DNA of 64,000 nucleotides from Phycisphaerales bacterium (lineage in GTDB: Bacteria > Planctomycetota > Phycisphaerae > Phycisphaerales > UBA1924), in assembly GCA_020849105.1 (NCBI GenBank), contig JADLGW010000045.1:1-64000 (forward strand), in the 5' to 3' direction. The translations under genes were made by a program, and so were the position numbers. Below the pieces are notes generated by a model. The model was not told the origin of the DNA and made no database searches. It worked only from the letters and a program-made list of their open reading frames with translations. Numbering within the stretch: position 1 is the stretch's first letter; every line of letters starts with the position of its first letter. Below, piece by piece: positions 22,380 through 59,584 of the stretch.

Positions 22380-22879
22380 AAGTCCGCGCGGGCAGGGTCG
22401 TAGTCGGGGTCCAGTTGCTCGATCAGCCGCTCGATGTACCGCCAGGCATTGAGCGTCATCCGGACCCGCGCGGGCACCCCGGTTTCGGCGTAGCGCAAGA
22501 AAAGCCCCGCCACATTCGCCTGGTACTCCCGCCTGCGCTCCGCGGCCCACGCCTCCCAGCGCGCCCGTTCCTCCGGGCCCCGGGCGGCCTCGATGTGCTC
22601 CCGCGTCTCCATGATTTCCATCAGGAACCCGGGCGGGAGCGAACGGTCCTCCTTGCCGGGACCGCCCAGCAACGCGAGCAGCGCCCGCGCCCGCCGCTCC
22701 GGGTCCTCCAGCACCCGTTTCGCGTGGTTCAGGGCCGCGGCCTTGCGGGCCGCATCGTCATCCCCCGCCGCGACGTCCGGGTGGACCGCGCCCGCCCGCT
22801 CCAGGTAGGCCCGGTCCACCTCCGACGGGTCCAGGTCGAACCCCCGCGGCAGGCCCAGCATGGCGAACGGATCGTCCAC
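22373..22879 (-). CDS. hscB: HscB-type J-domain co-chaperone
   Basis: HscB delivers iron-sulfur scaffold proteins to the Hsp70 HscA. The N-terminal J-domain (about residues 3-65) has the MLGLPRGFDLDPSEV opening, the HPD motif in GAVHPDV and the LNHAKRVLEDPERRA helix. The C-terminal helical domain shows the family hallmark LPPGFLMEIMETREHIE. I use the GTG at 22879 (MDDPFAMLGLP, 168 aa), which gives the usual length; a longer start would overlap the divergent gene. No hscA or isc genes are next to it. Confidence 0.88.
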   Translation of the reverse strand: MDDPFAMLGLPRGFDLDPSEVDRAYLERAGAVHPDVAAGDDDAARKAAALNHAKRVLEDPERRARALLALLGGPGKEDRSLPPGFLMEIMETREHIEAARGPEERARWEAWAAERRREYQANVAGLFLRYAETGVPARVRMTLNAWRYIERLIEQLDPDYDPARADFD

Positions 22880-22937
22880 GCCGGACTGTAGTGGGGGTCC
22901 TGCGCCGCCTGCCCGCCGCGCGGTTATCCTCCCCATC

Positions 22938-23627
22938 GTGCCCAAGCACATAGGCATCGTCGCCGTCAGTCCGGAAGGGGCGGCGCTGTTCTACCGGCAG
23001 ATGTCGCGCCATGCGGCGGATACACCCGGCGCCCAAGTCCCGAGGGTCACGATGCACGCGGAGCCCTTCGCCGGGTACCTGAGGGCGCTCGCGGACCAGG
23101 ACTGGCACGCCGTGGGGGAGTTGCTCCGCCGCTCCGCCGAGGCGCTGGCCCGGGCCGGGGCCGAGTTCTGCCTGACACCCGACAACGCCGTCCAGCACGG
23201 CGTGCAACTGGCCGAGGCCGGTTCGCCCATCCCCTGGCTCGGGATACCCGACCTTGTCGCGGCCGAGGCCGTCAAGGACCACCGGCGGGTTGTTGGGCTG
23301 ATCGGCACCCGCATGGTCACCACGGGCTCCACCTACCAGACGCTCCTGGGCCTGAAGGGCATCCAGGTGCTCCCCCCGACCCCGGCGGAGATCGAGGAGA
23401 TGAATCGCATTATCTTCGAGGAACTGATCTACGGGAAGATAAAGGTGTCGTCCCAGCGGACCGTCCTGGGCATTATCGAGTCCCTGGCCGCCCAGGGCTG
23501 CGACGGGGTGATCCTGGCCTGCTCGGAGGCCCCCCTGCTCGTGACCCGGGAGAACAGCCGCCTCCCCGTCTACGACGCCGCGGATTTGCTGGCGACCGGG
23601 GCTTTACAAAGGGCCGGCGTGCAGTAG
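22938..23627 (+). CDS. aspartate/glutamate racemase family protein
   Basis: The 229-residue sequence has the two-domain racemase layout, with a GIVAVSPEGAALFYRQM opening and the conserved late motif ILACSEAPLL containing the second catalytic Cys. The first catalytic motif is altered: where the family has C-N-T-A-H, this protein reads LTPDNAVQHG, so the first Cys is replaced. Some family members work with one cysteine, but racemase activity is uncertain. The GTG start at 22938 is the likely one. The gene is divergent from hscB across 58 bases. Confidence 0.78.
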   Translation: MPKHIGIVAVSPEGAALFYRQMSRHAADTPGAQVPRVTMHAEPFAGYLRALADQDWHAVGELLRRSAEALARAGAEFCLTPDNAVQHGVQLAEAGSPIPWLGIPDLVAAEAVKDHRRVVGLIGTRMVTTGSTYQTLLGLKGIQVLPPTPAEIEEMNRIIFEELIYGKIKVSSQRTVLGIIESLAAQGCDGVILACSEAPLLVTRENSRLPVYDAADLLATGALQRAGVQ

Positions 23628-23982: not shown

Positions 23983-26900
23983 ATGATGCTCTCGGACACG
24001 TCGCCCACCCGCCCGTCCCGGATCGCCTCCCTGCTCCGCCGCTGCGGCCTCGCACCCGGACGCCGGATGCCGGAGTTCAGCGGGATGGAGGCCCTGGAGA
24101 ACCGCGTCCTCCTGGCCGACGACCACCCGAACTTCGGCCAGGTCTTCAACACCCTGAACCCAGCGCCGGTCGAGAACATCGTCCTCAACGGGAGCGGGGC
24201 CGGCTCGGCCAGCGGCATCATCGAGGCCGCCGGTGACAACGACATGTTCCGGTTCACGGCCCCCACCACGGACTTCGTCCGGATCTGGGCGGACACGATC
24301 AACGCCGAGAGCGGCAGCAGCACCCTTGACACCCACGTCCAGATCTGGCGCCGGAACCCGGATACCTCGGGGTCGATCATCGGCGGCGGCGCGGACAACG
24401 GCCTCCTCACCGGCGGATTCTTCACCGACGGCTGGGCGGGCTTCATCGCCCAGGCCGGCCAGGAATACTTCATCCGCGTCCTTTCCAACAAGACCAGCGG
24501 CGTGGGCTCCACCGGCGACTATGTCGTCCGCGTCAACGCGCTCTCGACCACCCTTGCGCCCAACGGCGCCACCGGTGTCGCATCCGGCGGCGGCACCATC
24601 GTCCTGCCCGGCTCCGACACCATGTTCAAGGTCACCGGTGACGCCGACCAGATCTTCGACAGCCTGGCGACCGTCTACGCCCAGGAAGACGGCTCGACCA
24701 TCGACACCCGCGTGGACGCCTACAACGCCAACGGCGTGAAGATCATCGGCGACAGCGACTCCGGCAACCTCTCCAACTCGTTCACCGCCTTCCGCTCCGG
24801 ACAGAACAAGACCTTCTACATCCGCGTCCGTTCCGACAAGTTCAAGAACCCGCAGTCTCCCAACTCGACCGGCGCCTTCAAGGTGGCCGTGGACATGGCC
24901 GCGGACGACATCGCCGTGGACCCCGTGACCCGCCTGGCGGGGGCCAGCGGCAACCTGGCCGACCAGAAGTCCCACGGCCTCTTTGAGTTCCAGGCGCAGG
25001 GCACCGGGCTCACCTTCGTGACCATGTTCCCGGCCCCACCCCCCGGCCAGGTCACCGACTCCGCCCTTCACATCTACGACAACACCGGCGCCCTGATCGG
25101 GTTCAACGAACTGCCCGGCGCCTCTTCGGAAATCCAGATCTACCTCAACGGCGGCGAGCGTTACTGGGTCGTCGCGGAGACCTTCGACGCCACGCAGGGC
25201 GGCAACTACATCATGGAGATCGAGGCCCATCACACCTGGGACGACGACCCGGTGATCGACGACCACGAGAGCACCCCCGACACGCTCGGCCAGTCGCCGC
25301 CGGTCTTCGGATCCCCGACCTACGAGGCGATCCGGCGCGACTTTGAACTCGCCACGCCCATCGTCTGGGGCGACGCCGAGGACGCCCCGGACCCGATCCA
25401 CGGCGGCACCATCGCCGACCGTGGCAAGGTGGTCCGCGGCTACGCCCACGGCCGCATCCACACCGCGGCCGACACCGACCTCTTCCAGTTCGTCCCGCCC
25501 ATGGACATGCAGGGGCAGTACCCCGGCCGCAAGGATCCGCGCATCCAGGACCCCACGCCGCCCGAGTGGGCGCCCGACTATCGCCCCGGCTCGCGCATGC
25601 AGTTGTACCTGGAGCCCTCTGCCAGCGGGATGCTCGGAACCCCGCAGGTCCGGGTTCTGGACTCCAACTTCAGGGTCGTGTACGACTCCAACACCCAGCT
25701 CCTGCAGGGGCTGGTGCCGCCGGTGATGAACAGCGGCGGGGCGCCCGCCGCCGGCATGTACGACCCGTCTTCCTGGTCGCCGGAAGTCACGTTCCAGTAC
25801 TATCCCTTCGCCCTCGTCGATACCGCCAAGGGCATCCAACTCTGGGGCGGCGAGGTCTACTACATCGAAATCTCCAGCGCCGGCGGCGCCGGACGCTACG
25901 ACCTGGAAGTCCAGGTCGACGCCTACGAGGACACCTACTCCTCGATCCTCGACCCCGTCACCACCGCCGGCGACTGGGCCAACGCCTACGAACTCCCCAT
26001 CAACAGCACCACCGGCGATTCGTCCAACTACACCAACGCGGCCGGCGCCCAGACGGTCGGACAGGATCCGTTCACCGTCGCGGGCGGCATGATCAAGCGC
26101 GCCTGGGCCGGGAACTTCGTCGTTCCGCCCACGGACCCGATCGGCAACGGCACCGGCGCCTCCCCCAGCGTCGGCGGCATCCCGGCCTTCGCCACCCCCG
26201 GCACCCGCGGCCGCATCTGGCTCCAGGCCGGCGACTTCAACAACCTCATGCACGCCGATGACGTGGACCTCTACCAGTTCCGCGCCACCTACACCGGCAC
26301 GGCCGAGGTCCGCATCAACACCACCAACATCACCGACGAGTTCTGGGAGCAGATGACCGAGACCGAGGACGGCGACCCCATGACCCCGCCGGTCATGGAG
26401 GAGCCGTACACCGCCACCAAACTGCTCCAGAGCCCGCTGGACTCGGCCCTCCGCATCTTCGACAACGACCATATCCAGCTCGTCTACAACAACGACAACC
26501 CCGCGCTCGACGGCGAGTTCGGCGACTTCCAGATGGGCACCCACGGCAACCGCCGGTACTACCAGCGCGACGCCCGGGCCGTGTTCCATGTCGAGGAGGG
26601 CAAGACCTACTTCGTCCAGGTGGAGAGCGGCCAGAAGGCCGCCTTCGAGGGCGGCAACGGCAGCGACGTGGACTGGCGCCACGCCACCGGCACCTATGAA
26701 CTCCTCATCAACGCCATGCCCAACCTCAACTTCATCGACGACCATGTGAACGCCGAGGACCCCCAGTCGGCCCCCAAGTCCACCCTGATCCCGATCAGCG
26801 AGGCGGGGTCCGGCTCCGTCCACGGCCAGATCGCCAACGTCCCCGTCTTCAACCCGGTCGACAACGACGCCTTCCAGTTCATCGCCCCGACGAGCGGCAA

Positions 26901-29900
26901 CGCAACCGTCACCGTGACCCCCGGCCCGGGATCGCTGCGGCCGAACGTGACCGCGTTCCGCAACGGCAACGTCATCGCCGCCGGCACCGCCGGCGGCGTC
27001 TCCGCGGTCGCCGTCAACTTCGTCGTCACCAAGGGCGACGTGGTCTTCGTCGTCGTTGCCGGCGCCGGCAACAGCCAGGGCGAGTACGACGTTTCTGTCT
27101 CCAACCTCCCGAACACCGACGACCACGCCTCCCTGTATCAGTGGCACAACGCCACCGTCATCGAGTCCAACACCTACGACTACGACGGCACGGAGACCCT
27201 CAGCGGCACCATCGAGAACGCCGGTGACACCGACATCTTCCGCTTCGCCGCCATCGGCTTCGACTTCGCCAGGGTCACCGTGACCGCCCAGGGACAGTTC
27301 GATTCCTTCCTCGAGATCTACGAGGTCGGAGAGGACTTCCAGGGCAACCCCATCCTCCAGCGCGTCACCTACAACGACGACATCGTCCCCGTCACCAACC
27401 GCAGTTCCCAGGCCTTCGTCTCCCTCACGTCGCCGCCCCGCACCAGCGGTGTCAGCGGTCTGACCCTCAACGACTACTACATCGTCGTCCGCGGCTTCGA
27501 CCCGGAGACCACCCGCGGCTCCTACACCCTCACCCTCGACGTCAAGAAGACCGACGACCACCCGGACGCCGGGCAGTTCAGCGTCGCCACGCCGATCCCG
27601 CTGGCGATCCCCACCGGCCTCGGCAACGGCCACGGCGTCATCGAACTGTCGGGCGACACGGATATCTTTACCTTTACCGCGGGCGCCCAGGGCAGCGCCA
27701 CCGTCGTCATCACCTCGCCCACCAGCAGTTCGCTCCGCCAGGGCGTCAGGGTCTTTGACCAGGACTTCAACCCCGTCGTGGACCTCATCAGCGGCGGCAC
27801 CCTGGTCCTGGGCCTCGACAGCCCCAACTCGATCGCCACCTTCCGCTTCACCGCCCAGCGCAACCATGCCTACTACGTCGTCGTCCAGGGCGGTCCGCTC
27901 AACGGCGCATTCGTCAACAAGACCGCCGACACCGGCACATACACCGTCGGCGTCACCAGCCCCGTCCTGGACGACCACGCCAACGAGACCGAGTTCGACT
28001 TCGCCACGAGCGTCCCGCTCTCCATCGTGAACGGCGACGGCGCCGCCACCGGCCGCCTGGAGATCAACACCGATTCGGACATGTTCCGCACCCAGGCGAT
28101 CGCCAACGGCAACCTGGTCTTCACCTTCGACACCCCCAACAGTTTCTTCACCCCGGTCTTCCGTCTCTATCGCGCCGATCAGTCGGAGATCGGCACCGCG
28201 GTGGTCGACGGCGGCGCCGGCGATGAGGACGGCCAGGTGAACGGCGCCGTCACGCGCACCGTCGCCAATGCCCAGATCGGCGACACCTTCTACGCCCTGG
28301 TCAACTCCGACCCCGGCGGGTTCTCTCTCACCGGCCCGTACACCCTGGCCATCCAGGGCAACGAACCGCCCCGCAACCCCGACGACGACTACCCGGACGC
28401 CGGCCAGTTCGGCATCGCTCAGGACATCACCCTCGAACCGCTCAACGGGGACGGCTCCATCACCGGCGGCGTCCAGTTCGCCGGCGACACCGACCTCTTC
28501 CACATCACCACGCTCAACGCCGGCCGCTTCGTCGTCAACGTTCTCACCGCCTCCGGCGAGACCCTCGACGCCAAGGTCACCATCTTCGGGCCCAAGCAGG
28601 GCATCGTCACCTCCGACACGAACGGCTACCCCGGCGTGAACGCCGCGGCCGGTGCCAACGCCGGCGCCGCGGGGCTCGACTACTGGATCCTGGTGGAGGG
28701 CGTCGGCGGCACCACGGGCAACTACACGGTCAAGGTGGACTCCGCCCCGGCCGTCTACTCGCTCTTCTATCCGGAGGGCTTCGCCAGCCGCAGCATCCGC
28801 GAGTTCGTCGCCATCGAGAATCCGAACAGCACCGCCGTCAACTACACCATCCGACTCCGCTACGAGGACCCGGCCCTGCCGGAGGTCGTTGTCGCCCAGA
28901 ATGTGCGCATCAACCCGCACAGCCGCGACGGCGCGACCCTCAGCAACGGCGGAGCCACCCCGCTCCACGGCATCACCTTCGGCAAGCCCTACGCCATCAT
29001 CATCGAGTCCACCGGACAACTCGCCGCATCGCTCTCGCACTACGACTTCGACTCCTCGCTCGGTGAGAACTTCACCGAGGCCACCAGCAGCACCTGGACC
29101 TTTGCTCGCGGCGAGAAGTTCTCCGGCTCCGTCCGAGACTTCGTCCTCTTCTACAACCCCAACCCCACCGCCGTCGTGGTCACCCTCACCGCCTACGGCC
29201 AGGACGGCAGCACCACCATCCTGACCCAGACGGTCCAGGGCAACCGCCGCAGCGGCTGGGCCTTCAACAAGGTTGCCTCCCTGCCGATCGGGGCCTTCGC
29301 CTTCACCGTCACCTCAGCCCCCGTGAACTCCGGCGATCACCACGTCGGCATCGTCGCCTCCCTCAGCCACTACGACCTCATCAACCGTTCCGGCGACGCT
29401 GTCCTGGGCGATCCGAACGGCGGCGGCACCAGCGGCGCGATCCCCGGCGTCGTCAGCGGCGGCAACACCCAGGCCCAGTTCACGTTCTACAACCCGACCG
29501 CCACCGCCACCACAGTCACCATCGACGGCGACTACTTCAACTCCGGACTCCCCAACTTCACCCGCTTCATCGACGTTGGCGCCCACAGCAGCATCACCCT
29601 CAGCGGGGAGCAACTCGGCCTCATCGCCAGCCAGCCCGTGGGGCTCCGCTACACCTCCAGCCAGGACCTGACCGTCCTGACCCGCACCCTGGAGTTCGGT
29701 GACGGCACCGGCACCCAGGCCCCGACGGAAGCCGCCCTCGGCTTCTTCTTCGGTGACGGCTTCATCAACACCAGTCGTGCCGGCATCCAGTACCTGGAGA
29801 ACCTCTACCTCTACAACCCGGCCGCCGCCTCGGTCCAGGCCGACGTCCGCATCCTCTTCACCAACGGGGACGAGTTTACGACGTCCGTCTCCCTCGGCGC

Positions 29901-30102
29901 CCAGGGCTTCTCAAACGTCAAACTCCACGAACTCAGCGCCATCCTCTCCCGCGGCGGCAACCAGTACTTCTCGATTGAGGTTACGGCCGCAACCCCCATC
30001 GTCGCCACGATGGAGCACTTTGACCTCTTCCTGGCCGGCGGCTGGAGCAGCAAGGGCGCGACCATCGGCCTGGTCACCCCGATCTCGTCGATGAACTCGT
30101 AA
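23983..30102 (+). CDS. giant PPC-repeat surface protein, 2039 aa
   Basis: The N-terminus is basic and carries the planctomycete surface-protein motif MEALENRVLLA at about residues 35-45. The body is a series of beta-sandwich units of the bacterial pre-peptidase C-terminal (PPC) type: seven units start with a D-D-H/Y turn (DDHPNFGQ, DDHESTPD, DDHVNAED, DDHASLYQ, DDHPDAGQ, DDHANETE, DDYPDAGQ) and contain GDTDIFRF-like strands. The last 450 residues (from about 1589) are a different module of four repeats, each ending in a line like AASLSHYD, VASLSHYD, TRTLEF or VATMEHFD. No peptidase domain or membrane anchor is visible. GGAG lies 6 bases before ATG 23983; an in-frame ATG at 23971 is an alternative. 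It ends in a strong terminator. Confidence 0.92.
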   Translation: MMLSDTSPTRPSRIASLLRRCGLAPGRRMPEFSGMEALENRVLLADDHPNFGQVFNTLNPAPVENIVLNGSGAGSASGIIEAAGDNDMFRFTAPTTDFVRIWADTINAESGSSTLDTHVQIWRRNPDTSGSIIGGGADNGLLTGGFFTDGWAGFIAQAGQEYFIRVLSNKTSGVGSTGDYVVRVNALSTTLAPNGATGVASGGGTIVLPGSDTMFKVTGDADQIFDSLATVYAQEDGSTIDTRVDAYNANGVKIIGDSDSGNLSNSFTAFRSGQNKTFYIRVRSDKFKNPQSPNSTGAFKVAVDMAADDIAVDPVTRLAGASGNLADQKSHGLFEFQAQGTGLTFVTMFPAPPPGQVTDSALHIYDNTGALIGFNELPGASSEIQIYLNGGERYWVVAETFDATQGGNYIMEIEAHHTWDDDPVIDDHESTPDTLGQSPPVFGSPTYEAIRRDFELATPIVWGDAEDAPDPIHGGTIADRGKVVRGYAHGRIHTAADTDLFQFVPPMDMQGQYPGRKDPRIQDPTPPEWAPDYRPGSRMQLYLEPSASGMLGTPQVRVLDSNFRVVYDSNTQLLQGLVPPVMNSGGAPAAGMYDPSSWSPEVTFQYYPFALVDTAKGIQLWGGEVYYIEISSAGGAGRYDLEVQVDAYEDTYSSILDPVTTAGDWANAYELPINSTTGDSSNYTNAAGAQTVGQDPFTVAGGMIKRAWAGNFVVPPTDPIGNGTGASPSVGGIPAFATPGTRGRIWLQAGDFNNLMHADDVDLYQFRATYTGTAEVRINTTNITDEFWEQMTETEDGDPMTPPVMEEPYTATKLLQSPLDSALRIFDNDHIQLVYNNDNPALDGEFGDFQMGTHGNRRYYQRDARAVFHVEEGKTYFVQVESGQKAAFEGGNGSDVDWRHATGTYELLINAMPNLNFIDDHVNAEDPQSAPKSTLIPISEAGSGSVHGQIANVPVFNPVDNDAFQFIAPTSGNATVTVTPGPGSLRPNVTAFRNGNVIAAGTAGGVSAVAVNFVVTKGDVVFVVVAGAGNSQGEYDVSVSNLPNTDDHASLYQWHNATVIESNTYDYDGTETLSGTIENAGDTDIFRFAAIGFDFARVTVTAQGQFDSFLEIYEVGEDFQGNPILQRVTYNDDIVPVTNRSSQAFVSLTSPPRTSGVSGLTLNDYYIVVRGFDPETTRGSYTLTLDVKKTDDHPDAGQFSVATPIPLAIPTGLGNGHGVIELSGDTDIFTFTAGAQGSATVVITSPTSSSLRQGVRVFDQDFNPVVDLISGGTLVLGLDSPNSIATFRFTAQRNHAYYVVVQGGPLNGAFVNKTADTGTYTVGVTSPVLDDHANETEFDFATSVPLSIVNGDGAATGRLEINTDSDMFRTQAIANGNLVFTFDTPNSFFTPVFRLYRADQSEIGTAVVDGGAGDEDGQVNGAVTRTVANAQIGDTFYALVNSDPGGFSLTGPYTLAIQGNEPPRNPDDDYPDAGQFGIAQDITLEPLNGDGSITGGVQFAGDTDLFHITTLNAGRFVVNVLTASGETLDAKVTIFGPKQGIVTSDTNGYPGVNAAAGANAGAAGLDYWILVEGVGGTTGNYTVKVDSAPAVYSLFYPEGFASRSIREFVAIENPNSTAVNYTIRLRYEDPALPEVVVAQNVRINPHSRDGATLSNGGATPLHGITFGKPYAIIIESTGQLAASLSHYDFDSSLGENFTEATSSTWTFARGEKFSGSVRDFVLFYNPNPTAVVVTLTAYGQDGSTTILTQTVQGNRRSGWAFNKVASLPIGAFAFTVTSAPVNSGDHHVGIVASLSHYDLINRSGDAVLGDPNGGGTSGAIPGVVSGGNTQAQFTFYNPTATATTVTIDGDYFNSGLPNFTRFIDVGAHSSITLSGEQLGLIASQPVGLRYTSSQDLTVLTRTLEFGDGTGTQAPTEAALGFFFGDGFINTSRAGIQYLENLYLYNPAAASVQADVRILFTNGDEFTTSVSLGAQGFSNVKLHELSAILSRGGNQYFSIEVTAATPIVATMEHFDLFLAGGWSSKGATIGLVTPISSMNS

Positions 30103-48418: not shown

Positions 48419-48555
48419 GACGCCTCTCCGGCTGCATCGGATGGTGCGCGCGTCGCCTCCATGGTCGCGGCCCCCGTAGACTGACCCGGCGCGGAGTTTG
48501 TGCCGATTAGTCGGGCGTGGGGCGGGGGCCCGGCGGCCCGAAGAAGGGGGCGTTC

Positions 48556-51500
48556 TTGGCGCGAGCGTCTTGGTGGGCGGTTGCTGCGGGGCTGGTGCTG
48601 GGGGCTGCCGCGCGCGCCCAGGGCCCGAACCCCGTCTACGCCGACTTCTCCCCGCTCGCGTCGGACACGCTGGCCCATATCGCGGAGTTCACCAGCGCCG
48701 GCAACCTGGGCGAGGCGTCGCGCCAGTGCCAGCGTCTGCTGGATGAGCACGGCGGCCAGGTGGTGCCGGTGCCGGGCGACCCGGACCTGTTTGTAAGCGT
48801 GCGTTCGCGGGTGCACGCGGTGCTGCTGTCGTCGCCGGATCTGCTGGCCCGCTACCGCGAGAACGAGGGTGCGGTGGCGCGGGCGGCCCTGGAGGACGGT
48901 TCGCTCCGATCCGCGCGGCGCGTGGAGGACGTTCGTCTGCTGACGCCGGCCGGGCTGGAGGCGGCGCTGCGGGTTGCGCAGGACCACCTGGAATCGGCAC
49001 GGTTCGAGGCGGCCCGCCTGACGCTGGAGCAACTGGAGCGGCACCCCGATCGTGCGGGTGAGGGGGGCGCCCGGGCGGCGCGGCTGCTGGGAGAGGTCGC
49101 GCGATACCTGGCAGAACCCGGGCGGCACGAGGCGCTCGCCCGGGCGGAGCGCTGGGCGGGAACGGTCGGCCCCGGGGCGCCGCGGGCTGGACCGGCCGAG
49201 GTTCCGCCGTGGATCGGCCTGCCGGTGTACACGCTGGATCGGCCGGCGGCGGAGGTCGAATCGTCCGGGTCCAGCGCTCCGCTGTGGACCGCCAACATTG
49301 ACCCGAGTTGGGAGCCGCCCCCCCCTTCGCCGCAGATGCCCGGGGCTCCGGCGCTGGCTCTTGATGAATCACGGATGTGGGTGGCGCCGGCGGTTTCGGG
49401 CGAGACGCTGTACACCAACGACGGGACGACGATCACCGCCCGGGACCGGTTCACGCTCCAGGCCCGGTGGTCCACGCGTCCATCCGCGGACCGAACGGTG
49501 GACGACCCGGAGGGCGTGCACCAGAACGCCGCGATGCGCGGTGCCGGGCGAGCCCTGGAGGACATGTGCTTCGTCACGGTTGCCGGGCGCGTGGTGCTGG
49601 CGACAACGGGGCTGGCCCGTGACGGCGACCGCGACGGCGACCCGCGCACCCACGCTCTGGACGCGGCGACCGGGCGCGTGCTGTGGTCCGTGTTCGTGCC
49701 GGACCTGGACCCGCAACTGGAGACCGGGAGCGTGCGCGGCCCGGTGCTCGTGGACGGCGACATGGCCGTGGTGGTGGTGCGGAAGGCGGCGCTGGCCCGA
49801 CGGGTGGTGAGCGTGTACCTGGCGGGGCTGTCGCTGCGCACGGGCGCGGTCCGTTGGGTGCGCCTGGTCGGCAGCGCGGGCGCCCTGCCCTACATCCAGC
49901 AGCGGCGGATCGGCGACGCGGCGGTGCTGGATCGGGGCGTGGTGTACGTCCAGGACCAACTCGGCATCATGGGCGCGGTGGAGGCCGCGACCGGCAGGCC
50001 GGTGTGGACGCGGCGGATGGCGGTGCAACGCAACGCCGAACAGGGCACGCTCCCCTGGCGTTTCGGGGAACCGGTGCTGGACGCGACCGGGATGGTGGTG
50101 CTGTCGCCCGACCAGGGCAGCGTGCTGCGGCTGGACCGTGCCACGGGAGCGATCGTGGCGTCGCGTCCGGCCCCGCAACTGGGCGATCCGGGGTACATCC
50201 TGCGGGCCGGTGGCGACGTGGCCTGTGTCGGTGAAACCCGGGTCACGCTGGTCCCGCTCGTGGACATCGGAGCCGGACCGATCCGGGCGACCAAGGCGGT
50301 GCCGAGCAAGATCCGGGGGCGGGTGGTGGTGGCCGGCGACCGCCTGCTGCTGCCGCGGCTGGAGGGCTTCACGCTGGTGGACCTGGGCCATCCGGACGGC
50401 GACGGGGAACTCCACACCCTGGACACCCCGGGGAACGTGCTGCCGGTACCGGGGCAGCTGCTTGTCCTCGACGGCTTGTCGGCGCACAGTTACCTGGACT
50501 GGCCGCTGGCCGACCGGCTGCTTTCGGCGCGCATGGAACACGACCCGGCGGACCCGGCGCCGGCGATCACATACGCCGAACTCGCATTTCGGGCGGGGCA
50601 CCCGGGGGCGATTGCGGCCTCCGCGGACAAGGCACTGGCCGCGCTCGACCGGGGCGGTTCGGCCGTGCTGCGCACCCGACTGTTCGGATCGCTGCGCGAC
50701 ATGGTGGCGGCCAGCCAGGGTCCGGAGCCCGGGCCGCGGGCGCTGCCGCCCGATGTGCTGGCGGCGGTGATCGAACGCCTGGGGCGTGCTGCGCAGACGC
50801 CGGCGGAACGTGTGGTTCACCTGATGGCGCTGGGGCGGCTGGAGGAGACGCGCGACCGGGCGGGCCCCGCGATCGAGGCGTACCAGCGGATCCTTGCCGA
50901 CGCGGCGATGGGCGCCACACTGTGGCAGGGGCCGGGGCTGCGGGTCCGGGCCGGTCTGGAGGCGGCGCGAAGGGTGCGCGGGCTCGTAACGGCCCACGGC
51001 GCGGCGTCCTACGCACCCTTCGATGCGGAGGCCGAGTTTGCCCTGCGCGCCCTGGGGGCAGCGCCGGGCCCCGCGGCGCTGGAACGGATCGCGGCCCAAT
51101 ACCCGGCGTCCGCCCATTCGGCGTCTGTGTGGCTGCGTGCGGCGTCGCTGCACGAACGTGCCGGTCGCGATCACGCGGCGAGCGCTGACCTGCGGGAGGC
51201 GCTGGCCTCCGCTGAACTCGCCCTCACCGCCGGGCAGGCGATCGATCCCGCCGTTCCGGGAGAGATCGCGGGACGCCTGCTGGCCGGATTCCGGGCGGGG
51301 CAGGAGCCGTACGCCGCGTTGCGGCTGGTGCGGCGGCTCGGCTCGGGGACGCCGCCCATCACGCCGACTTCCGCCGGCAAACCGATTGACCTGGCCGCGC
51401 TCGACGCGGAACTCTCCAAGACCCTTTCGGGCGAGAACCGCCTGCCGCGGATCGGGGCCGATCTGGAGGCCGAACCGCAGGCCCTGGTCGGCTGGGCGCT

Positions 51501-52893
51501 CATGGAGCCGATCAGCCGCGAACGTGCCTCCGCCGAGCATGTGATGATGCTGAATCGCTCGGAGTTGAGGGTGGCGCTGTGGGGTGTGCCGATGAGCCGC
51601 GGCGGGCCGGGTGACACCACCGGGCCGACGCGGCTGTCGATGCTGTGGAGCCGGCCGTTCGAGCGCGCCGAGCCGCGCGTGCTGCGGCTGGAGGCCGGCG
51701 CGGTGTACCTGCTGTGGGACCGCGCGGAACAGGGTTTCGCGATCGAGAAGATCGACACGGTGACTGGACTGACGGAATGGAAGACCGATCCGCACGCGGC
51801 GTACTTCGCCGGGGAGTCGTCGTGGACCCAGCGGGCCGCCCTGACCCCGGAGGTCATCGAGACTCCCGTGGACGGGCCGGTAGCGCCCCTGCACGTCCTG
51901 GTGGCGGTGGGCGAGCGGGCGGTGATCCTGGCGGACCGAACGGGGCGGGTGGTCGCGTTTGATCCGGCGACCGGGGCCCCGCTGTGGCACGTCGTGAGTT
52001 CGCTGTGGCACATGCACGACGTCGCCATCCTGGGTGGCATCGTTGCCGTCGGTGGGGTGGCGCCGCCCGCGGACAACCCGGGCGCACTCTCGGGGTGGCA
52101 CTCGGACATCGAGGTCTTTGATGCCCGGACCGGCGCCCCCGGGGCGGGGGTGACGTCGCTTGAAGGGACGCTCCGCTGGCTGCGGATCGCGGACACCGGG
52201 AACGCGGCGGGCCCGGCGATCCTGGCGGCCCTTGACGCCAGCCTTGTCTCCTTTGACGCCGCGACCGGCCGGCGCAACTGGGAGTGGCCCGGTTCCGGCG
52301 GGTTCGAGTCCATCGGTGCCTGGGTGCTCGGGGGCCGCCTGTTCGTCCTGGGCGAGGACCGGGCGCTCTGGATGGTCCCCGTGGATGCGGGGGGCGACGA
52401 CCAGACGCGATCGCTCGACACCTTCAACCGGTTGACCAACAACGGGGTGGTCCACGCGGTGGAGGTTCCGGGGCCCGCGGGTCCGCTCGCGGCCTTCGTC
52501 AGCGGGCGCGGGGTCCTGGTCTACGACCCCGGCCGTGCGGAGCGCCCCGGGCGCAGCGGATCACCCGCAGCGCTCGTCGGTATCGATGCGCTGGTGCCGC
52601 AGGAGAACGTGCTGGACCCGACAGGGGGCACGATGCAACTGGTCACGCCGGTGGTCACGAGGACGCTGTTCGTGGCGCTGGAGCAGTACCCGCAGGTGCT
52701 GGAGGACAAGCGGCAGGTCTACACCCTGCACCTGCTGGATGCACGAAACGGGAAGATGCAGGGCCCGGCCACCAACCTGGTCATGTGGGCCGCTCCTCAG
52801 GCCGTCGCCGCCATCGATGGCCGGATCATCATCACGAGCGGCGACATCCGCGCGGTGACGCTGGTGTACGGGGCGCCGGAGGCTGATCGCTGA
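48556..52893 (+). CDS. exported PQQ-type beta-propeller with a TPR-like middle, 1445 aa
   Basis: The signal peptide (residues 1-22, MARASWWAVAAGLVLGAAAR) starts at a TTG at 48556, preceded by AAGAAGGGGG; a GTG at 48517 would add 13 residues. After an N-terminal helical part (about 25-220), two blocks of PQQ-like beta-propeller repeats appear (about 280-640 and 1000-1440), with lines like LDAATGRVLWSVFVPD, VEAATGRPVWTRRM and FDPATGAPLWHVVS. Between them (about 650-1000) lies a helical TPR-like region. It is probably a periplasmic scaffold or binding protein; no enzyme motif is visible. Two YkgJ-like genes follow within 22 bases. Confidence 0.9.
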   Translation: MARASWWAVAAGLVLGAAARAQGPNPVYADFSPLASDTLAHIAEFTSAGNLGEASRQCQRLLDEHGGQVVPVPGDPDLFVSVRSRVHAVLLSSPDLLARYRENEGAVARAALEDGSLRSARRVEDVRLLTPAGLEAALRVAQDHLESARFEAARLTLEQLERHPDRAGEGGARAARLLGEVARYLAEPGRHEALARAERWAGTVGPGAPRAGPAEVPPWIGLPVYTLDRPAAEVESSGSSAPLWTANIDPSWEPPPPSPQMPGAPALALDESRMWVAPAVSGETLYTNDGTTITARDRFTLQARWSTRPSADRTVDDPEGVHQNAAMRGAGRALEDMCFVTVAGRVVLATTGLARDGDRDGDPRTHALDAATGRVLWSVFVPDLDPQLETGSVRGPVLVDGDMAVVVVRKAALARRVVSVYLAGLSLRTGAVRWVRLVGSAGALPYIQQRRIGDAAVLDRGVVYVQDQLGIMGAVEAATGRPVWTRRMAVQRNAEQGTLPWRFGEPVLDATGMVVLSPDQGSVLRLDRATGAIVASRPAPQLGDPGYILRAGGDVACVGETRVTLVPLVDIGAGPIRATKAVPSKIRGRVVVAGDRLLLPRLEGFTLVDLGHPDGDGELHTLDTPGNVLPVPGQLLVLDGLSAHSYLDWPLADRLLSARMEHDPADPAPAITYAELAFRAGHPGAIAASADKALAALDRGGSAVLRTRLFGSLRDMVAASQGPEPGPRALPPDVLAAVIERLGRAAQTPAERVVHLMALGRLEETRDRAGPAIEAYQRILADAAMGATLWQGPGLRVRAGLEAARRVRGLVTAHGAASYAPFDAEAEFALRALGAAPGPAALERIAAQYPASAHSASVWLRAASLHERAGRDHAASADLREALASAELALTAGQAIDPAVPGEIAGRLLAGFRAGQEPYAALRLVRRLGSGTPPITPTSAGKPIDLAALDAELSKTLSGENRLPRIGADLEAEPQALVGWALMEPISRERASAEHVMMLNRSELRVALWGVPMSRGGPGDTTGPTRLSMLWSRPFERAEPRVLRLEAGAVYLLWDRAEQGFAIEKIDTVTGLTEWKTDPHAAYFAGESSWTQRAALTPEVIETPVDGPVAPLHVLVAVGERAVILADRTGRVVAFDPATGAPLWHVVSSLWHMHDVAILGGIVAVGGVAPPADNPGALSGWHSDIEVFDARTGAPGAGVTSLEGTLRWLRIADTGNAAGPAILAALDASLVSFDAATGRRNWEWPGSGGFESIGAWVLGGRLFVLGEDRALWMVPVDAGGDDQTRSLDTFNRLTNNGVVHAVEVPGPAGPLAAFVSGRGVLVYDPGRAERPGRSGSPAALVGIDALVPQENVLDPTGGTMQLVTPVVTRTLFVALEQYPQVLEDKRQVYTLHLLDARNGKMQGPATNLVMWAAPQAVAAIDGRIIITSGDIRAVTLVYGAPEADR

Positions 52894-53382: not shown

Positions 53383-53858
53383 GCGACGCGCACCTGTGGC
53401 TGGAGGCCGCGGCACGGCCGGAAGTCGCGGCGGAACTGGAGGCGGTCTACGCGTACATCGCGGCGGCGGTGGAATCCCGCGGGCCGCGGTGCTGGGTCAG
53501 CGGTCGCTGCTGCAACTTCGGGGCGCACGGGCACCGCCTCTATGTGACGGGCCTGGAGGCGGCGTACACCCTGCTCCGGGCGGAGCGCGATGGCGCACCG
53601 GCGCTGGACACCGGGCTGCTGCACGCGGCTCTAGGGCGCGGCGGGTGTCCCTACCAGGTCGGTGGCCTGTGCGGGGCGCACGGTGTCCGGCCGAGCGGAT
53701 GCAGGGTCTATTTCTGCGATCACACCGCCCAGGACTGGCAGCGCGACCTGTCCGAACGCTCGCTGCGGCTCATCCGTGACCTGCACGACCGCCACGGGGT
53801 GGGGTACCGCTACGCGGAGTGGTCCGGGCTTCTCGGAGAACTGCTCGGGGCGACCTGA
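53379..53858 (+). CDS. second YkgJ-like cysteine cluster protein, 159 aa
   Basis: A divergent relative of the previous gene with CWVSGRCCNF (about residues 35-44), a middle GGCPYQVGGLCGAHG, then PSGCRVYFCD. The spacing of Cys pairs resembles the YkgJ type but the first motif is longer. The start GTG overlaps the preceding stop (GTGA). Its last 49 bases overlap the convergent glycosyltransferase gene. Confidence 0.85.
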   Translation: MSDAHLWLEAAARPEVAAELEAVYAYIAAAVESRGPRCWVSGRCCNFGAHGHRLYVTGLEAAYTLLRAERDGAPALDTGLLHAALGRGGCPYQVGGLCGAHGVRPSGCRVYFCDHTAQDWQRDLSERSLRLIRDLHDRHGVGYRYAEWSGLLGELLGAT

Positions 53859-56134
53859 CCGCGCCGTGCCGCGAGCAGGCGGCGCAGCCCCGAGCCGTCG
53901 TTCTCAAGGTCCGCCGGCAGCGGTGGCGGGGCCCGGAGCAGGCCGCGGAGCACGCCGCCGACCACGCGGGAATGCAGAAGGATCGAGAGCCCGGCGAGCC
54001 GGTGAGCCCAGGCCCAGCCCTTCAGGATGGCGCCGGTCCGTGTCCAACCGCGGCCGTGGCGCCTGCACAGCCACACCCAGTTCCGGGTGGCGAGCGAGAA
54101 CCAGCGGGGTGACTTTCGCGCGGCCGCGGGGCTGTCGTGCCACACGATCCAGGCCGGATCGAAGCGGACGCCGCGACCCGCGGCAAGCAGTTTCAGAGCC
54201 AGATCGGTGTCGTTGCGGTAGAGGAAGTAGGCGGGCTCGTACCCACCCACACGGAGCCAGTCCTGCCGGCGGACAAGATTGCCGCACCCCATGAGCGGCC
54301 AGGCGTCGGTCGCTTCTGCCCGCGGAGCGAAGGCCCACTCGCTGGCGCCGGTCTGCGGGTGGCGCGGGTGCAGCGCGACCGCGGCAAGGTCCGGACGAGC
54401 ATCCAGCAGTGCCGCCGCGGCGGCCACGGCGCCGCGGTCCGGTTGGGCGTCGTCGTCAAGGATCAGGACGTAGTCACCGGCGGATGCCGCGACGGCGCGG
54501 TTGTACGCCTCCACGCCGATGTTCTCTTCGAGCGGGAGCACCGTGACACGGTCCCGCGGCGCGCCCCGGAGCCGGTCCACGGTGCCGTCGGTGGAGGCGT
54601 TGTCGGCGACGACGATGGGCGCACCGGCGAGGTCCGGATCGGCCGCCAACTGGTCGAGGGTGCGTTCCAGCACCGCGGCCCGGTTGTAACTGAGCACGAT
54701 GAGCGCGACCGACCCGCGCGGCACGCCATCGCCATTTTCGGGGGCCAGTGGTTCCCCGGGCACCGGATGCGGCCGGCGCACCGCGAGCCGCCACGCGAGC
54801 CCCAGACCCTTGTTCAGGACTGAGGCGAGCGCCGCCACCCTCCCCCGCCGCCCGATCCGACGGATCGCGTACCCGTCGCGCCAGACGGTGACCAGCACGC
54901 GCCCGGCCATCCAATCGACCGGCCGCCCGCGCGGCGAGACGATCGCCAGGTCGTGCGGCGGCCCGCCGACCAGCCGGCGCAGGGATCGCCTGACCGCGCG
55001 CGACTGCGGACCGGGTTCCTCGCGCACGCGCACCGGGTTCACCGCCAGTTTCCGCATGATCGCCGCGATCCGATCGGCGTCCACGTCCAGCCCGGGGCCC
55101 AGCGCCACCCGCCCGATGCCCCGGGCGCCGACGGCCCCGCGAACGCCGGATTCGAGGGTCTGGAGGGGGTGGGGCGGCTCAACCCGCAGGTCCGGCGGCA
55201 TGGGCCCGCGCACGCCGTCAAGGGCATCGCGCAGCCCGCGCAGGTGCAGGCGGGCCAGGTCGTCGCGCCCGAGCATGACCTGGCACGCCGCGCGCCCGAC
55301 CTCACGCAGCGCCCGACGCAGCCGGCACCGCGCACCGCACCCCGCGGCCGCCAGGGTGCCGAAGGCATTCCGGGCCGCGTAGTACCGCGCCACCGTCCGC
55401 ATTCGATCCGGGCGGGGGTGGAAGGCCCTGGAGCGGGGGACGGCCAGCACATGCCCACCGGTCGCGCGGGCCAGACGAAGGCACCATTCAACGTCGTCCC
55501 CACTGACGAAATACCGGCCCATCAGGCCCGCCCGCTCGACGGCCCACCGTCGCACGAGCAGGCTGCACGCCGCGGCATACTCGACGCGCCGCACCGCGTG
55601 GCCGTTCGGCGCGGGCTGTACATACTCGCCGCTGGAGCGGTCGATGTACCCGCCGGCCTCGAACGGGGGGGAATCCGGCGACTCGTGGAGCGACGACGCG
55701 GCCGCGACGGCAACGGGATCGGCGTCGAGTTCGGCCAGCAAGGCCTCCAGGGCGCCCGGATCGAGCCGGGCATCGCTGTCCAGCAGCCACACGAACTCGC
55801 CCTCGCCGTGGGGAGTTCCGCGGGCCAGGGCGTGGCGCATCCCGGCGTTGAAGCCGCCGCTGCCGCCCGCGTTCCGCGAGAGCCGGACGACCGCGGTCCG
55901 CGGCGAATCCAGCCGGATCGGTGGCTCCGATGCGTTATCAACGACGATCGTGTCCACGGCGACGCCCGCGGGTACACGCAGGGCGGCGACGTCGCCCAGG
56001 AGCAGCCTCAGGTCGCCGGGCCGGTTGTAACAGGGGACGACGGCCGTGACACGGCGCGCCGCCACGGCCGGCACCTCCAGGGGGTGCCCGAGGTGAAGGG
56101 GGGCGAAACGGTCAACGTGGGTCGCCTGTTCCAC
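53810..56134 (-). CDS. glycosyltransferase with two GT2 domains, 774 aa
   Basis: Two complete GT-A modules: the first (about residues 28-300) with TAVVPCYNRPGDLRLL, VVDNASEPP and the DxD motif LLDSDARLDP, the second (about 480-740) with ALIVLSYNRAAVLERTL, VADNASTDGTVDRL and LILDDDAQPDRG. A 180-residue linker (with basic residues and LNKGLGLAWRLAV) joins them. The linker and the C-terminal region may hold membrane-associated helices. The start is GTG at 56134. Probably builds a two-sugar repeat on a lipid or polymer. The 3' end overlaps the second YkgJ gene. Confidence 0.9.
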   Translation of the reverse strand: MEQATHVDRFAPLHLGHPLEVPAVAARRVTAVVPCYNRPGDLRLLLGDVAALRVPAGVAVDTIVVDNASEPPIRLDSPRTAVVRLSRNAGGSGGFNAGMRHALARGTPHGEGEFVWLLDSDARLDPGALEALLAELDADPVAVAAASSLHESPDSPPFEAGGYIDRSSGEYVQPAPNGHAVRRVEYAAACSLLVRRWAVERAGLMGRYFVSGDDVEWCLRLARATGGHVLAVPRSRAFHPRPDRMRTVARYYAARNAFGTLAAAGCGARCRLRRALREVGRAACQVMLGRDDLARLHLRGLRDALDGVRGPMPPDLRVEPPHPLQTLESGVRGAVGARGIGRVALGPGLDVDADRIAAIMRKLAVNPVRVREEPGPQSRAVRRSLRRLVGGPPHDLAIVSPRGRPVDWMAGRVLVTVWRDGYAIRRIGRRGRVAALASVLNKGLGLAWRLAVRRPHPVPGEPLAPENGDGVPRGSVALIVLSYNRAAVLERTLDQLAADPDLAGAPIVVADNASTDGTVDRLRGAPRDRVTVLPLEENIGVEAYNRAVAASAGDYVLILDDDAQPDRGAVAAAAALLDARPDLAAVALHPRHPQTGASEWAFAPRAEATDAWPLMGCGNLVRRQDWLRVGGYEPAYFLYRNDTDLALKLLAAGRGVRFDPAWIVWHDSPAAARKSPRWFSLATRNWVWLCRRHGRGWTRTGAILKGWAWAHRLAGLSILLHSRVVGGVLRGLLRAPPPLPADLENDGSGLRRLLAARRGQVAPSSSPRSPDHSA

Positions 56135-56275
56135 GCGGGGCAGTGTATTCGTCGCGGCGGCGGGGTGGCCCCAGGTTTCGTGCGCAACTCATTGAGAGAT
56201 AAACCCTTGCATGAAAGGGGGCCCGCGCGTATGTTTGATGGATTGACGGAGTGTGACGGCCGGAGGAGACTGCCC

Positions 56276-58438
56276 ATGCCACGCCGATCCCGAAGCGACG
56301 CCCGGAAGCCCCGTGACCTTTTCGAGGCCCTGGAGAGCCGGACGCTCCTGTCGTACACCCACCCGATGATGGCGGCCCTGCCCGGGTTGGACGCGATGGA
56401 GAACCCCGGGAACACGGTCGTCCGGTTCCAGACCAGCCTGGGGAACATCGATATCGAGATGTACGACGCGGTGGCGCCGCACACGGTGGCGAACTTCCTG
56501 CAGTACATCAGGGACGGGGCGTACGACGACATGTTCTTCCACCGGGACGTCCCGGACTTCGTCCTGCAGGGGGGCGGATACAAGTTCGAGGATGGGCAGG
56601 GCAAGCGGAACATCCCGCAGCGGGACGCGATCGCCAACGAGTTCAACCGGCACAACACCGAGGGCACGATCGCCATGGCGCGCCTGCAGGGGCAGCCGGA
56701 CTCGGCGACCAACCAGTTCTACTTCAACCTGAAGGACAACCCGACCCTGGACCTGATCGACGGCGGGTTCACGGTGTTCGGGAAGGTGATCGCCGGATGG
56801 GACAACGTGCTGGCGATCCGCGACCTGAGCACGCGGGACTACGACGTCAAACTCAACGGCGTGGAGGGGCACTTCTTCGATGACGTGCCGGTCATCGGCA
56901 ACCCGGGCCCGTCCACGCCGGTGACGGAGGCGGGGCTGGTGATGACCTGGGACGCGGAGATCATCAAGCCCCGGGGCGCTCCCGATTTCTACACCCAGGC
57001 GGCGTACTACGCCGAGGGGTTCCGCAACGCGAACATCGTGGAGCGCGTCGACGTCGTGAACTCCGACACCGGGCGCAACAACTACTACCAGGTGATCGTG
57101 CGTTACGAGACGGGAGAGCGCGACAAGGTGATCGCGACCGGGCTGCTGACCCCGTTGCAGAGGAGGACCATCAAGATCGTGGACAACGCGGGAGGGTTCA
57201 ACCTCGTCCGCTCGGGCGTGGGCTACGCCATCGAGGTGCGATCCACCCGGGTGCTCGCCGCCTCGCTGAATCACCGCGACTTCGGCGTCACGCTGGGCGA
57301 GTCGTTCATCTCCACCGTCAACCAGCCGGTGAACGGGCTGAAGTTCTGGAACTTCGCGGCCGGGGTCAAGGGCCCCGGCGAGCGCGACTTCATCCTGTGG
57401 GACAACATCACGGACCAGACGGTGACCGTGTACCTGACGCTGTACCCGCAGAGCCAGCCCGCCAAGGAGTTCAGTTTCCAGGTGGAGCGGTACCGGCGCG
57501 GCGGGGTTTCCATCAACACGCTCGCCGGCGTGCCCAACAACCGCGTGTTCTCCGTGCGCCTGGCCTCCACCGGGCCCATCGTCGCCGCGATGAGCCGCTA
57601 CGAGATCAACGGCCTCACGTCCACCACCAACGGCAGCACGGAACTTGGCATCCCGCTGGGGGGCCGGTCCGAGGGGTACCTCGCGGCCGCCCGCGTCGGG
57701 CCGGGGATCACCAGCACCCTCAGCGTGCTGTACACGACCGGGGCGCCCAGTGCGCTGATCGATTTCTACTTCTTCTTTGACGACGGCTCGGTGATCCGCG
57801 GGAAACCCGTGGACCTGACCGGCCTGGTGCGGCGCAAGGACATCAACCTGGCGACGATGGGCCTGACGACCATCCCGGCCGATGAGCCCTTCGCGATCCG
57901 GTACAAGGTGCGGGGGGCCAGCACCGCCGTGGCGGTTGTCTACACCCAGGAGTCCGACGGCGACACGATGTCCACGCCGTTCACGACCGCGTCGGGCAAC
58001 AACCTCTACTTCGGCGACGGGTACATGGACCCGGACGAGGTCGGGTCGACGTACTCCGAGACCATCTCGATCTTCAATCCCTACCAGGACACGCAGGTCT
58101 CGTTCCGTTGGGGGATCCAGTTCCTCTTCTCCGACGGCACGCGGCTCGCCTTCAACGGCGGGACGCTGGCCTCGCTGCGCCGGCTGGACATCCGCCCCAA
58201 CGAGATGCCGGGCTTCATGGCCAAGGTGAACTCGAGCCCCGCGTTCCGCTTCTACTCCGTGGTCCTCGGGTTCACGGAACTGGTGAACGGCCAGCCGTTC
58301 AGCGGCGGAGCCGGGATCGCCCAGATCACGCGCATCCACGCCCAGGCGAACTGGCGTCAGACCATGACCAGCGGACCGATGGTCCACCCCGGCGTGCCGC
58401 TGACGTACATGGACGCGCCGCAGTTCGATCCCCTGTGA
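56276..58438 (+). CDS. surface-motif cyclophilin with a four-repeat C-terminal module, 720 aa
   Basis: The N-terminus is basic and holds the planctomycete motif FEALESRTLLS (about residues 15-25). A complete cyclophilin-type peptidyl-prolyl isomerase domain follows (about 45-205): VRFQTSLGNIDIEMYD, the catalytic Arg in MFFHRDVPDFVLQGGGY, and DSATNQFYFNLKDN. From about residue 240 the protein has the same four-repeat beta module as the C-terminus of the giant protein at 23983-30102 (lines AASLNHRDF, VAAMSRYEI and so on). GGAGGAG about 7 bases upstream of ATG 56276 decides the start. It probably acts outside the cell, folding or holding surface proteins. Confidence 0.92.
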   Translation: MPRRSRSDARKPRDLFEALESRTLLSYTHPMMAALPGLDAMENPGNTVVRFQTSLGNIDIEMYDAVAPHTVANFLQYIRDGAYDDMFFHRDVPDFVLQGGGYKFEDGQGKRNIPQRDAIANEFNRHNTEGTIAMARLQGQPDSATNQFYFNLKDNPTLDLIDGGFTVFGKVIAGWDNVLAIRDLSTRDYDVKLNGVEGHFFDDVPVIGNPGPSTPVTEAGLVMTWDAEIIKPRGAPDFYTQAAYYAEGFRNANIVERVDVVNSDTGRNNYYQVIVRYETGERDKVIATGLLTPLQRRTIKIVDNAGGFNLVRSGVGYAIEVRSTRVLAASLNHRDFGVTLGESFISTVNQPVNGLKFWNFAAGVKGPGERDFILWDNITDQTVTVYLTLYPQSQPAKEFSFQVERYRRGGVSINTLAGVPNNRVFSVRLASTGPIVAAMSRYEINGLTSTTNGSTELGIPLGGRSEGYLAAARVGPGITSTLSVLYTTGAPSALIDFYFFFDDGSVIRGKPVDLTGLVRRKDINLATMGLTTIPADEPFAIRYKVRGASTAVAVVYTQESDGDTMSTPFTTASGNNLYFGDGYMDPDEVGSTYSETISIFNPYQDTQVSFRWGIQFLFSDGTRLAFNGGTLASLRRLDIRPNEMPGFMAKVNSSPAFRFYSVVLGFTELVNGQPFSGGAGIAQITRIHAQANWRQTMTSGPMVHPGVPLTYMDAPQFDPL

Positions 58439-58496
58439 GGCCGGTGTCGCGCGGGCGTCTTGCCCGCCCCTGACCGGGCATGGGCGCCGCGGGCGA

Positions 58497-59486
58497 TCAA
58501 CTCTCGCCGCGGCTGTCTCGGGGTGCTGATGGCGCCGGGGTGTTCGCGGCGGCGCGGGCCCCCGGCAGCACCGCGCGGGCCAGGCGCAGCATCCCCGTCG
58601 CCGCCGCCGCCAGCGGACGCGGCAACGCCCGCACCGCGCGGTGCAGCGCGTGGTGCAGGCGCACCGCGGCCATCGATTCGTACATCTCGCGCTCGGCCCG
58701 CAGCGCGCGCAGGTTGATCGGTTGGCCGTCCTCGTCCACCCAGTGCATCTCCGCGCGCCGCAGCGCCCCCACCGCGCGGGCCAGCAGGTCCTCGGCGTGC
58801 CGATGGTACATCTCGGCGTGGCGGGACATCAGGTCGCGGAACAGGGCCTCGTGCCGGCTCGCGGCCCCAGTCACCATGGTCACCGGGCTGTGCCGGTTCC
58901 AGTTGAAGAGCATCTCCGGCACCCGCACGCCCCGCCACCCGCGCTCGGCGAACTTCAGCCACAGGTCCCAGTCCTCGTACCCCCGGCTCAGCGATTCATC
59001 GAAGCCGCCGACCCGCTCAAAGCACTCCCGCCGGACGAGCGCCGTGACGGGGTGCAGGTTGGTCACCATCAGCAGCAGCGGGTCCCACTCCGGCACACGC
59101 CACTGGCCCTCGTGAAGGCCCACGATCCGCTCGTGGCAATAGGCGTGCGAGGCCCCGGGGGCGCCACCCAGGGCCGCGGCGAGAGCCGTGGCGAACCGCG
59201 GTTCCACCGTATCGTCGGCGTCGAGGAACGCCAGGTAGGGCGAGTCCGCACCGTGGGCGCCGGCGTTTCTGGCCGCGGGCAGGCCCCGGTTCTCCTGCCG
59301 GATGACCCGAACGCGTGGGCCGGCGCACTCGGCGCACCGCCGTGCCGAATCCTCACCAGAGCCGTCATCGACAACCACGACCCGAACATCAGCCCCGGCC
59401 TGGGCCAGGGCCGAACCCACCGCCGCGGCCACGAAGCGGCCGTGGTTGTGGCAGGGAATCACGAAGGTCACGGCGGGAATGGGCAC
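58497..59486 (-). CDS. family 2 glycosyltransferase, 329 aa
   Basis: GT-A glycosyltransferase with VTFVIPCHNHGRFVAAAV, VVVDDGSGEDS, QENRGLPAARNAG and the DxD motif FLDADDTVEP. It has no membrane helix and a basic C-terminal tail (about residues 270-329) rich in Ala and Arg. It faces the cyclophilin gene tail-to-tail (58 bases) and is divergent from the ABC exporter gene (98 bases), which may move the product. Confidence 0.93.
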   Translation of the reverse strand: MPIPAVTFVIPCHNHGRFVAAAVGSALAQAGADVRVVVVDDGSGEDSARRCAECAGPRVRVIRQENRGLPAARNAGAHGADSPYLAFLDADDTVEPRFATALAAALGGAPGASHAYCHERIVGLHEGQWRVPEWDPLLLMVTNLHPVTALVRRECFERVGGFDESLSRGYEDWDLWLKFAERGWRGVRVPEMLFNWNRHSPVTMVTGAASRHEALFRDLMSRHAEMYHRHAEDLLARAVGALRRAEMHWVDEDGQPINLRALRAEREMYESMAAVRLHHALHRAVRALPRPLAAAATGMLRLARAVLPGARAAANTPAPSAPRDSRGES

Positions 59487-59584
59487 GACAGACGGTATCA
59501 GGGCCCGGAGAACAGGGGACGGGGCGCAATGAAACGGGGCCCTGTTTGTCTGGCGGCGTTGGTCCCGTCATACTCCCCGTCCTC

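Follow-up and report, generated by a model that had tools for sequence, protein, structure and literature searches.

A four-repeat ASRAH-type module at the C-termini of different secreted proteins in a family of Phycisphaerales

The window analysed here is a stretch of 64,000 nucleotides (positions 1 to 64,000, forward strand, of contig JADLGW010000045.1, assembly GCA_020849105.1) from a Phycisphaerales bacterium of the GTDB lineage UBA1924. It contains two open reading frames (ORFs), of 2039 and 720 codons' worth of protein, that are present as the preliminary description had them and whose products share a C-terminal region, here termed module A in the larger and module B in the smaller protein. 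The features of the two loci, with their coordinates in the window and strands, are as follows.

22860–23627, +, Asp/Glu racemase directly upstream of the giant protein
23983–30102, +, secreted giant protein (2039 aa) with module A at its C-terminus; an ORF with orthologs in other genera that have the same racemase upstream
24085–24114, +, LEPR-XLL-type motif MEALENRVLL in the N-terminal part of the giant protein; 12.9 bits, the cut-off of 17 not being reached
28750–29085, +, module A repeat 1, ASRAH domain, approximate boundaries; model strands E6-10 to E105-110
29086–29424, +, module A repeat 2, ASRAH domain; conserved module residues W119 and N139
29425–29730, +, module A repeat 3, ASRAH domain; structure 2iia at Z 12.5, rmsd 1.4, 84 residues, model 227-315
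29731–30099, +, module A repeat 4, ASRAH domain, at the protein C-terminus; structure 1nc7 at Z 15.3, rmsd 2.3, 111 residues, model 329-445
53810–56134, −, GT2 glycosyltransferase that has two GT2 domains and lies next to the cyclophilin fusion in divergent orientation
56276–58438, +, cyclophilin fusion (720 aa) with module B; Pro_isomerase E 2.5e-36
56321–56350, +, LEPR-XLL-type motif FEALESRTLL of the cyclophilin fusion, seen in the sequence
56420–56839, +, cyclophilin (peptidyl-prolyl isomerase) domain, PF00160, residues 49-188
56990–57325, +, module B repeat 1, ASRAH domain, approximate boundaries; from alignment and model
57326–57658, +, module B repeat 2, ASRAH domain; 1nc7 at Z 11.7, rmsd 2.0, 108 residues, model 113-223; Pfam ASRT E 3.8e-4
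57659–57988, +, module B repeat 3, ASRAH domain; from alignment, model and repeat tree
57989–58435, +, module B repeat 4, divergent ASRAH domain; from alignment, model and repeat tree
58497–59486, −, second GT2 glycosyltransferase, downstream of the cyclophilin fusion
59315–61417, +, MsbA-like ABC exporter, given as the extent of the ORF, the true start probably lying further in; MsbA model E 2.7e-130, under the equivalog cut-off

The last ~450 residues of the giant protein and the last ~480 residues of the cyclophilin fusion had been reported to match repeat by repeat. The two regions do align (BLASTP E 4e-26, 28% identity over 389 aa), and comparing the four repeat profiles with one another gives 97.9–99.3% (hhalign). 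Both proteins have the opening line reported as Y-x-x-E-G-F, but its exact form is Y-[PA]-E-G-F. The proposed closing line A-A-S-L-x-H-x-D-F...L-G-E-x-F is literal in repeat 1 of both proteins but does not end every repeat: in the giant protein it is degenerate in repeats 2 (IVASLSHYDL) and 4 (IVATMEHFDL) and absent from repeat 3. The earlier label "PPC protein" is not supported for the giant protein of the window, in which a Pfam scan of families up to E 1 found no PPC domain, but one ortholog matches PPC (E 3.6e-7). Only these two copies of the module were found in the 3.29-Mb genome of the window.

The preliminary description did not recognise the module as a known domain. Each repeat is in fact almost certainly an ASRAH domain, a beta-sandwich of the ASRT superfamily (Pfam PF07100/PF18986), a known group of putative bacterial small-molecule binders that was described in 2009 (PMC2739507) and for which there are solved structures. 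The copies in the window lie just under the Pfam cut-offs (21.2 against 26.2 bits for DUF5719; 20.8, in module B repeat 2, against 25 for ASRT). Among the 41 modules of our alignment, where repeats R1–R3 are present in 41 and R4 in 39, Pfam ASRT matches 23 (best 2.8e-21), with relatives scoring up to 56 bits, and DUF5719 likewise matches 23 (best 3.6e-11), over part of the tetrad, some relatives exceeding its gathering cut-off (28.6, 30.2, 38.2 and 38.3 bits). Current Pfam cut-offs thus miss many of the new ASRAH architectures seen here. The profile of the module, searched against the PDB, finds 1nc7 at 2.1e-11 and 2ii7 at 2.6e-7, and in other planctomycetes it recovers single-domain ASRT genes (1.2e-9 to 2.5e-6) that are independently matched by Pfam ASRT. 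Taken singly, the profiles of R1, R2, R3 and R4 match the ASRT alignment at 96.7, 96.9, 96.8 and 98.2% (hhalign), whereas for 26 control segments, cut from the beta-rich N-terminal region of the giant protein and of its orthologs, the values do not exceed 1.1% against ASRT, 8.5% against R1 and 1.8% against R4. An NCBIfam scan gave no family for the module, a search of plasmids and phages with the module gave no match, and the literature library searched yielded no paper on DUF5719 or on a comparable C-terminal module of planctomycetes.

Structure prediction, proposed in the preliminary description, yielded rigid four-domain beta modules in both proteins, with pLDDT 95 and pTM 0.92 for module A and pLDDT 92.4 and pTM 0.92 for module B (AF2). 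Compared with solved structures, module A is closest to 1nc7 (VIA Z 15.3) and 2ii7-2iia (12.3–12.6), the next entry standing at 6.4; module B is closest to 1nc7 (11.7) and further ASRT entries (8.2–8.5), the next again at 6.4. In these predicted models both modules have the ASRT beta-sandwich fold. An Ig-like or Big domain was rejected, ASRT being far ahead in both profile and fold comparison. Among structures of viral proteins, the only matches were long beta proteins with TM <0.25.

The ASRAH superfamily is characterised by a near-invariant Asn and a ligand pocket (De Souza, Iyer and Aravind 2009, PMC2739507). The Asn, at the end of strand 2, is kept in 39, 38, 36 and 40 of 41 modules in R1 to R4. 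The Glu of the SHExxCxxN signature is found in 28/41 copies of R1 and 38/41 of R4, and R2 has Asp in 31/41. At the start of strand 1, R2 has Trp in 38/41; R1 and R4 have other aromatic residues there (Tyr/Phe), and R3 is without a clear equivalent. The pocket His and Cys of ASRT are conserved in none of the four repeats of the 41-module alignment: the His position is mainly R/V/S/N/T/F, the Cys position mainly P/S/V/L/T/R. In its known form the ligand site of ASRT is therefore gone, and the deviation from SHExxCxxN places the repeats within the ASRAH superfamily but outside the single-domain ASRT-like family. The RR-G, N-P and W columns are conserved in a position-specific manner within the tetrad.

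In a tree of 162 single repeats from the 41 modules, the repeats cluster by their position in the module, with support 100/99, 100/97, 98/94 and 93/72 for R1 to R4. Parsimony requires three changes for the four groups, which is the minimum; the tree has few columns, and R4 support is only 93/72. This grouping by position indicates that the tetrad arose once, by duplication, before the present carriers diverged, and that it has since been passed on and moved as a whole.

The profile search of other planctomycete proteomes, which the preliminary description had suggested, did find relatives, but among the planctomycetes sampled full tetrads turned up only in the family of the window. Of 61 genomes searched with a profile built from the two window copies, 19 have the module; these include the window's own and all belong to that family, and no match came from 24 genomes belonging to the order's other families. 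With the 41-row profile, 392 genomes across the phylum were covered, and full tetrads again occurred in the window's own family only. A metagenome-assembled genome labelled Tepidisphaera sp. has a relative at 41% (L032). In a distant planctomycete family, large proteins were also observed that have, close to the N-terminus, some three weak ASRT-like repeats. The repeats are joined to an alpha/beta-hydrolase domain in one of them (L138:3040-6441) and to an M23 peptidase and a PA14 domain in the other (L139:2733-5681); possibly these are separate tandem ASRAH arrangements.

Carrier ORFs span 488–2752 aa and have the tetrad at or near the C-terminus. In most of them about 25 residues or fewer follow the module, in several 44–199. 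The N-terminal partners include cyclophilin, subtilase with P-domain and PPC, M10-like (matrixin-like) and FG-GAP domains and giant PPC proteins, or there is almost none: two secreted-type proteins of 488–500 aa (L044:2119-3618 and L047:482-1945) contain little beyond the tetrad. One relative has two cyclophilin-tetrad genes in tandem (L066:900-5381). N-acetylmuramoyl-L-alanine amidase is absent from 18 scanned relatives and from both window proteins. An N-terminal LE-x-R-x-LL motif is present in 34 of 43 tetrad carriers against 2 of 312 other ORFs of the same stretches, a contrast that is indicative, since the comparison set includes spurious ORFs. The module had been proposed to serve anchoring or assembly in planctomycete surface proteins. 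A mobile C-terminal block, found whole on varied secreted proteins, resembles what such a module would be expected to show and supports that proposal in part, but "planctomycete" is too broad, as only one family among the sampled planctomycetes has full tetrads.

The genomic context differs between carriers. At cyclophilin loci, the order divergent GT2, cyclophilin fusion, GT2, MsbA-like exporter (53810–61417 in the window) recurs across several genera of the family. Among eight such loci, the divergent GT2 gene is kept at six, the second GT2 gene at four and the exporter at six, two of the gaps in these counts falling at contig ends. This conserved block may make and export a surface glycan. 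Neither the GT2 genes nor the exporter were found at 12 loci of giant or subtilase carriers. The window also contains a 1458-aa ORF with a PQQ/BamB-like beta-propeller (48517–52893).

Since the same block is attached to proteases and other enzymes in relatives, it probably serves as a handle that can be reused to keep proteins at the cell surface. We read the tetrad as a surface-retention module, most likely acting via a cell-surface glycan, and give this reading a probability of roughly one half. The four ASRAH domains would pack into one rigid superdomain, which would most likely bind the glycan and so keep the attached isomerase, protease or giant protein at the envelope. The cluster beside the cyclophilin gene, with its glycosyltransferases and MsbA-like exporter, could be what produces this glycan. 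The glycan is favoured because the GT2/exporter block is kept at cyclophilin loci, a context of the same kind as the glycosyltransferase link reported for secreted ASRAH versions (PMC2739507). Against it counts that the cluster adjoins cyclophilin fusions only; the giant protein neighbours the racemase, a pairing kept at 7 of 8 giant-protein loci. The lack of conservation of the pocket His and Cys also counts against glycan binding, and even for ASRAH domains at large sugar binding was inferred from context and pocket, not measured (PMC2739507). A more specific version, in which the tetrad would be an intramolecular copy of the ASRT tetramer forming a pseudo-symmetric cup for the polysaccharide made and exported by the GT2/MsbA-like cluster, seems unlikely to us. 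If true, it would be a hitherto undescribed tag-and-receptor system, specific to the lineage, by which enzymes of unrelated kinds are tethered to the planctomycete envelope without a covalent bond.

Since the pocket residues are lost, a role in protein-protein assembly stays in play: the tetrad, as a single-chain ASRT homotetramer, would dock carriers to each other or to a surface-layer protein without any sugar. ASRT forms a tetramer and the ASRAH domains of secreted proteins occur as dyads or tetrads (PMC2739507), AF2 predicts one confident unit (pTM 0.92), and the structural Asn and Glu columns are kept where the ligand His and Cys are lost. This alternative leaves the glycosyltransferase/exporter neighbourhood unexplained, and no candidate partner protein or conserved interaction patch was identified; we regard it as tentative and somewhat unlikely. 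The C-terminal place of the block on many unrelated secreted proteins would also fit a sorting signal for a secretion system, with a role like that of the T9SS Por_Secre_tail. The tetrad is, however, four folded domains of ~450 aa, and known sorting tails are far smaller. The N-terminal LEPR-type segment may already take care of export, and the residues that come after the module in several carriers likewise speak against a terminal signal, making this role improbable. Equally improbable are passive spacers or stalks without a ligand. Beta-sandwich repeats frequently act as spacers and no catalytic-looking residues are common to the repeats, but the fixed count of four, the position-specific conservation and the position-wise descent are unlike variable-number spacer arrays, and the short carriers of 488–500 aa hold little besides the tetrad. 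DNA looping, reported for ASRT (PMC8660804), is an unlikely role for a secreted module.

The retention of large secreted proteins at the planctomycete envelope is poorly understood. A fixed C-terminal module on isomerases and proteases, in one context accompanied by a probable glycan synthesis and export cluster, offers a handle on this process. The fold and the family are already known; what is new is the arrangement and its lineage-specific spread, which add a set of new architectures to those of the ASRAH superfamily.

With ASRT/ASRAH proteins (PF07100; 1nc7, 2ii7) the module shares the beta-sandwich fold, profile homology in both directions, the strand-2 Asn and the SHExxCxxN Glu in R1 and R4 (Asp in R2). 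Judged by eye, both also open with aromatic-x-[P/G]-[E/D]-G-[Y/F] and have [H/R]-x-D in the last strand. In contrast to the single-domain ASRT-like family, whose members are stand-alone and intracellular, the module is secreted, has four domains in tandem and stands C-terminal to other domains. Most carriers resemble LEPR-XLL proteins (NCBIfam NF012209) in having the N-terminal LE-x-R-x-LL, but LEPR-XLL marks a presumed export or surface class and not the C-terminal module. DUF5719 (PF18986) probably corresponds to the cell-surface ASRAH family of actinobacteria; it matches part of the tetrad and is comparable in its surface location and in the glycosyltransferase neighbour reported for that family. 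The actinobacterial version differs in that it is described as a dyad, with extensions of its own and a lipobox. In the amidase-associated ASRAH tetrads of Chloroflexi (PMC2739507), four ASRAH domains likewise share a secreted chain with an enzyme. By their published description they are set apart by the amidase, whereas the partners found here are cyclophilin, subtilase, M10-like and PPC domains.
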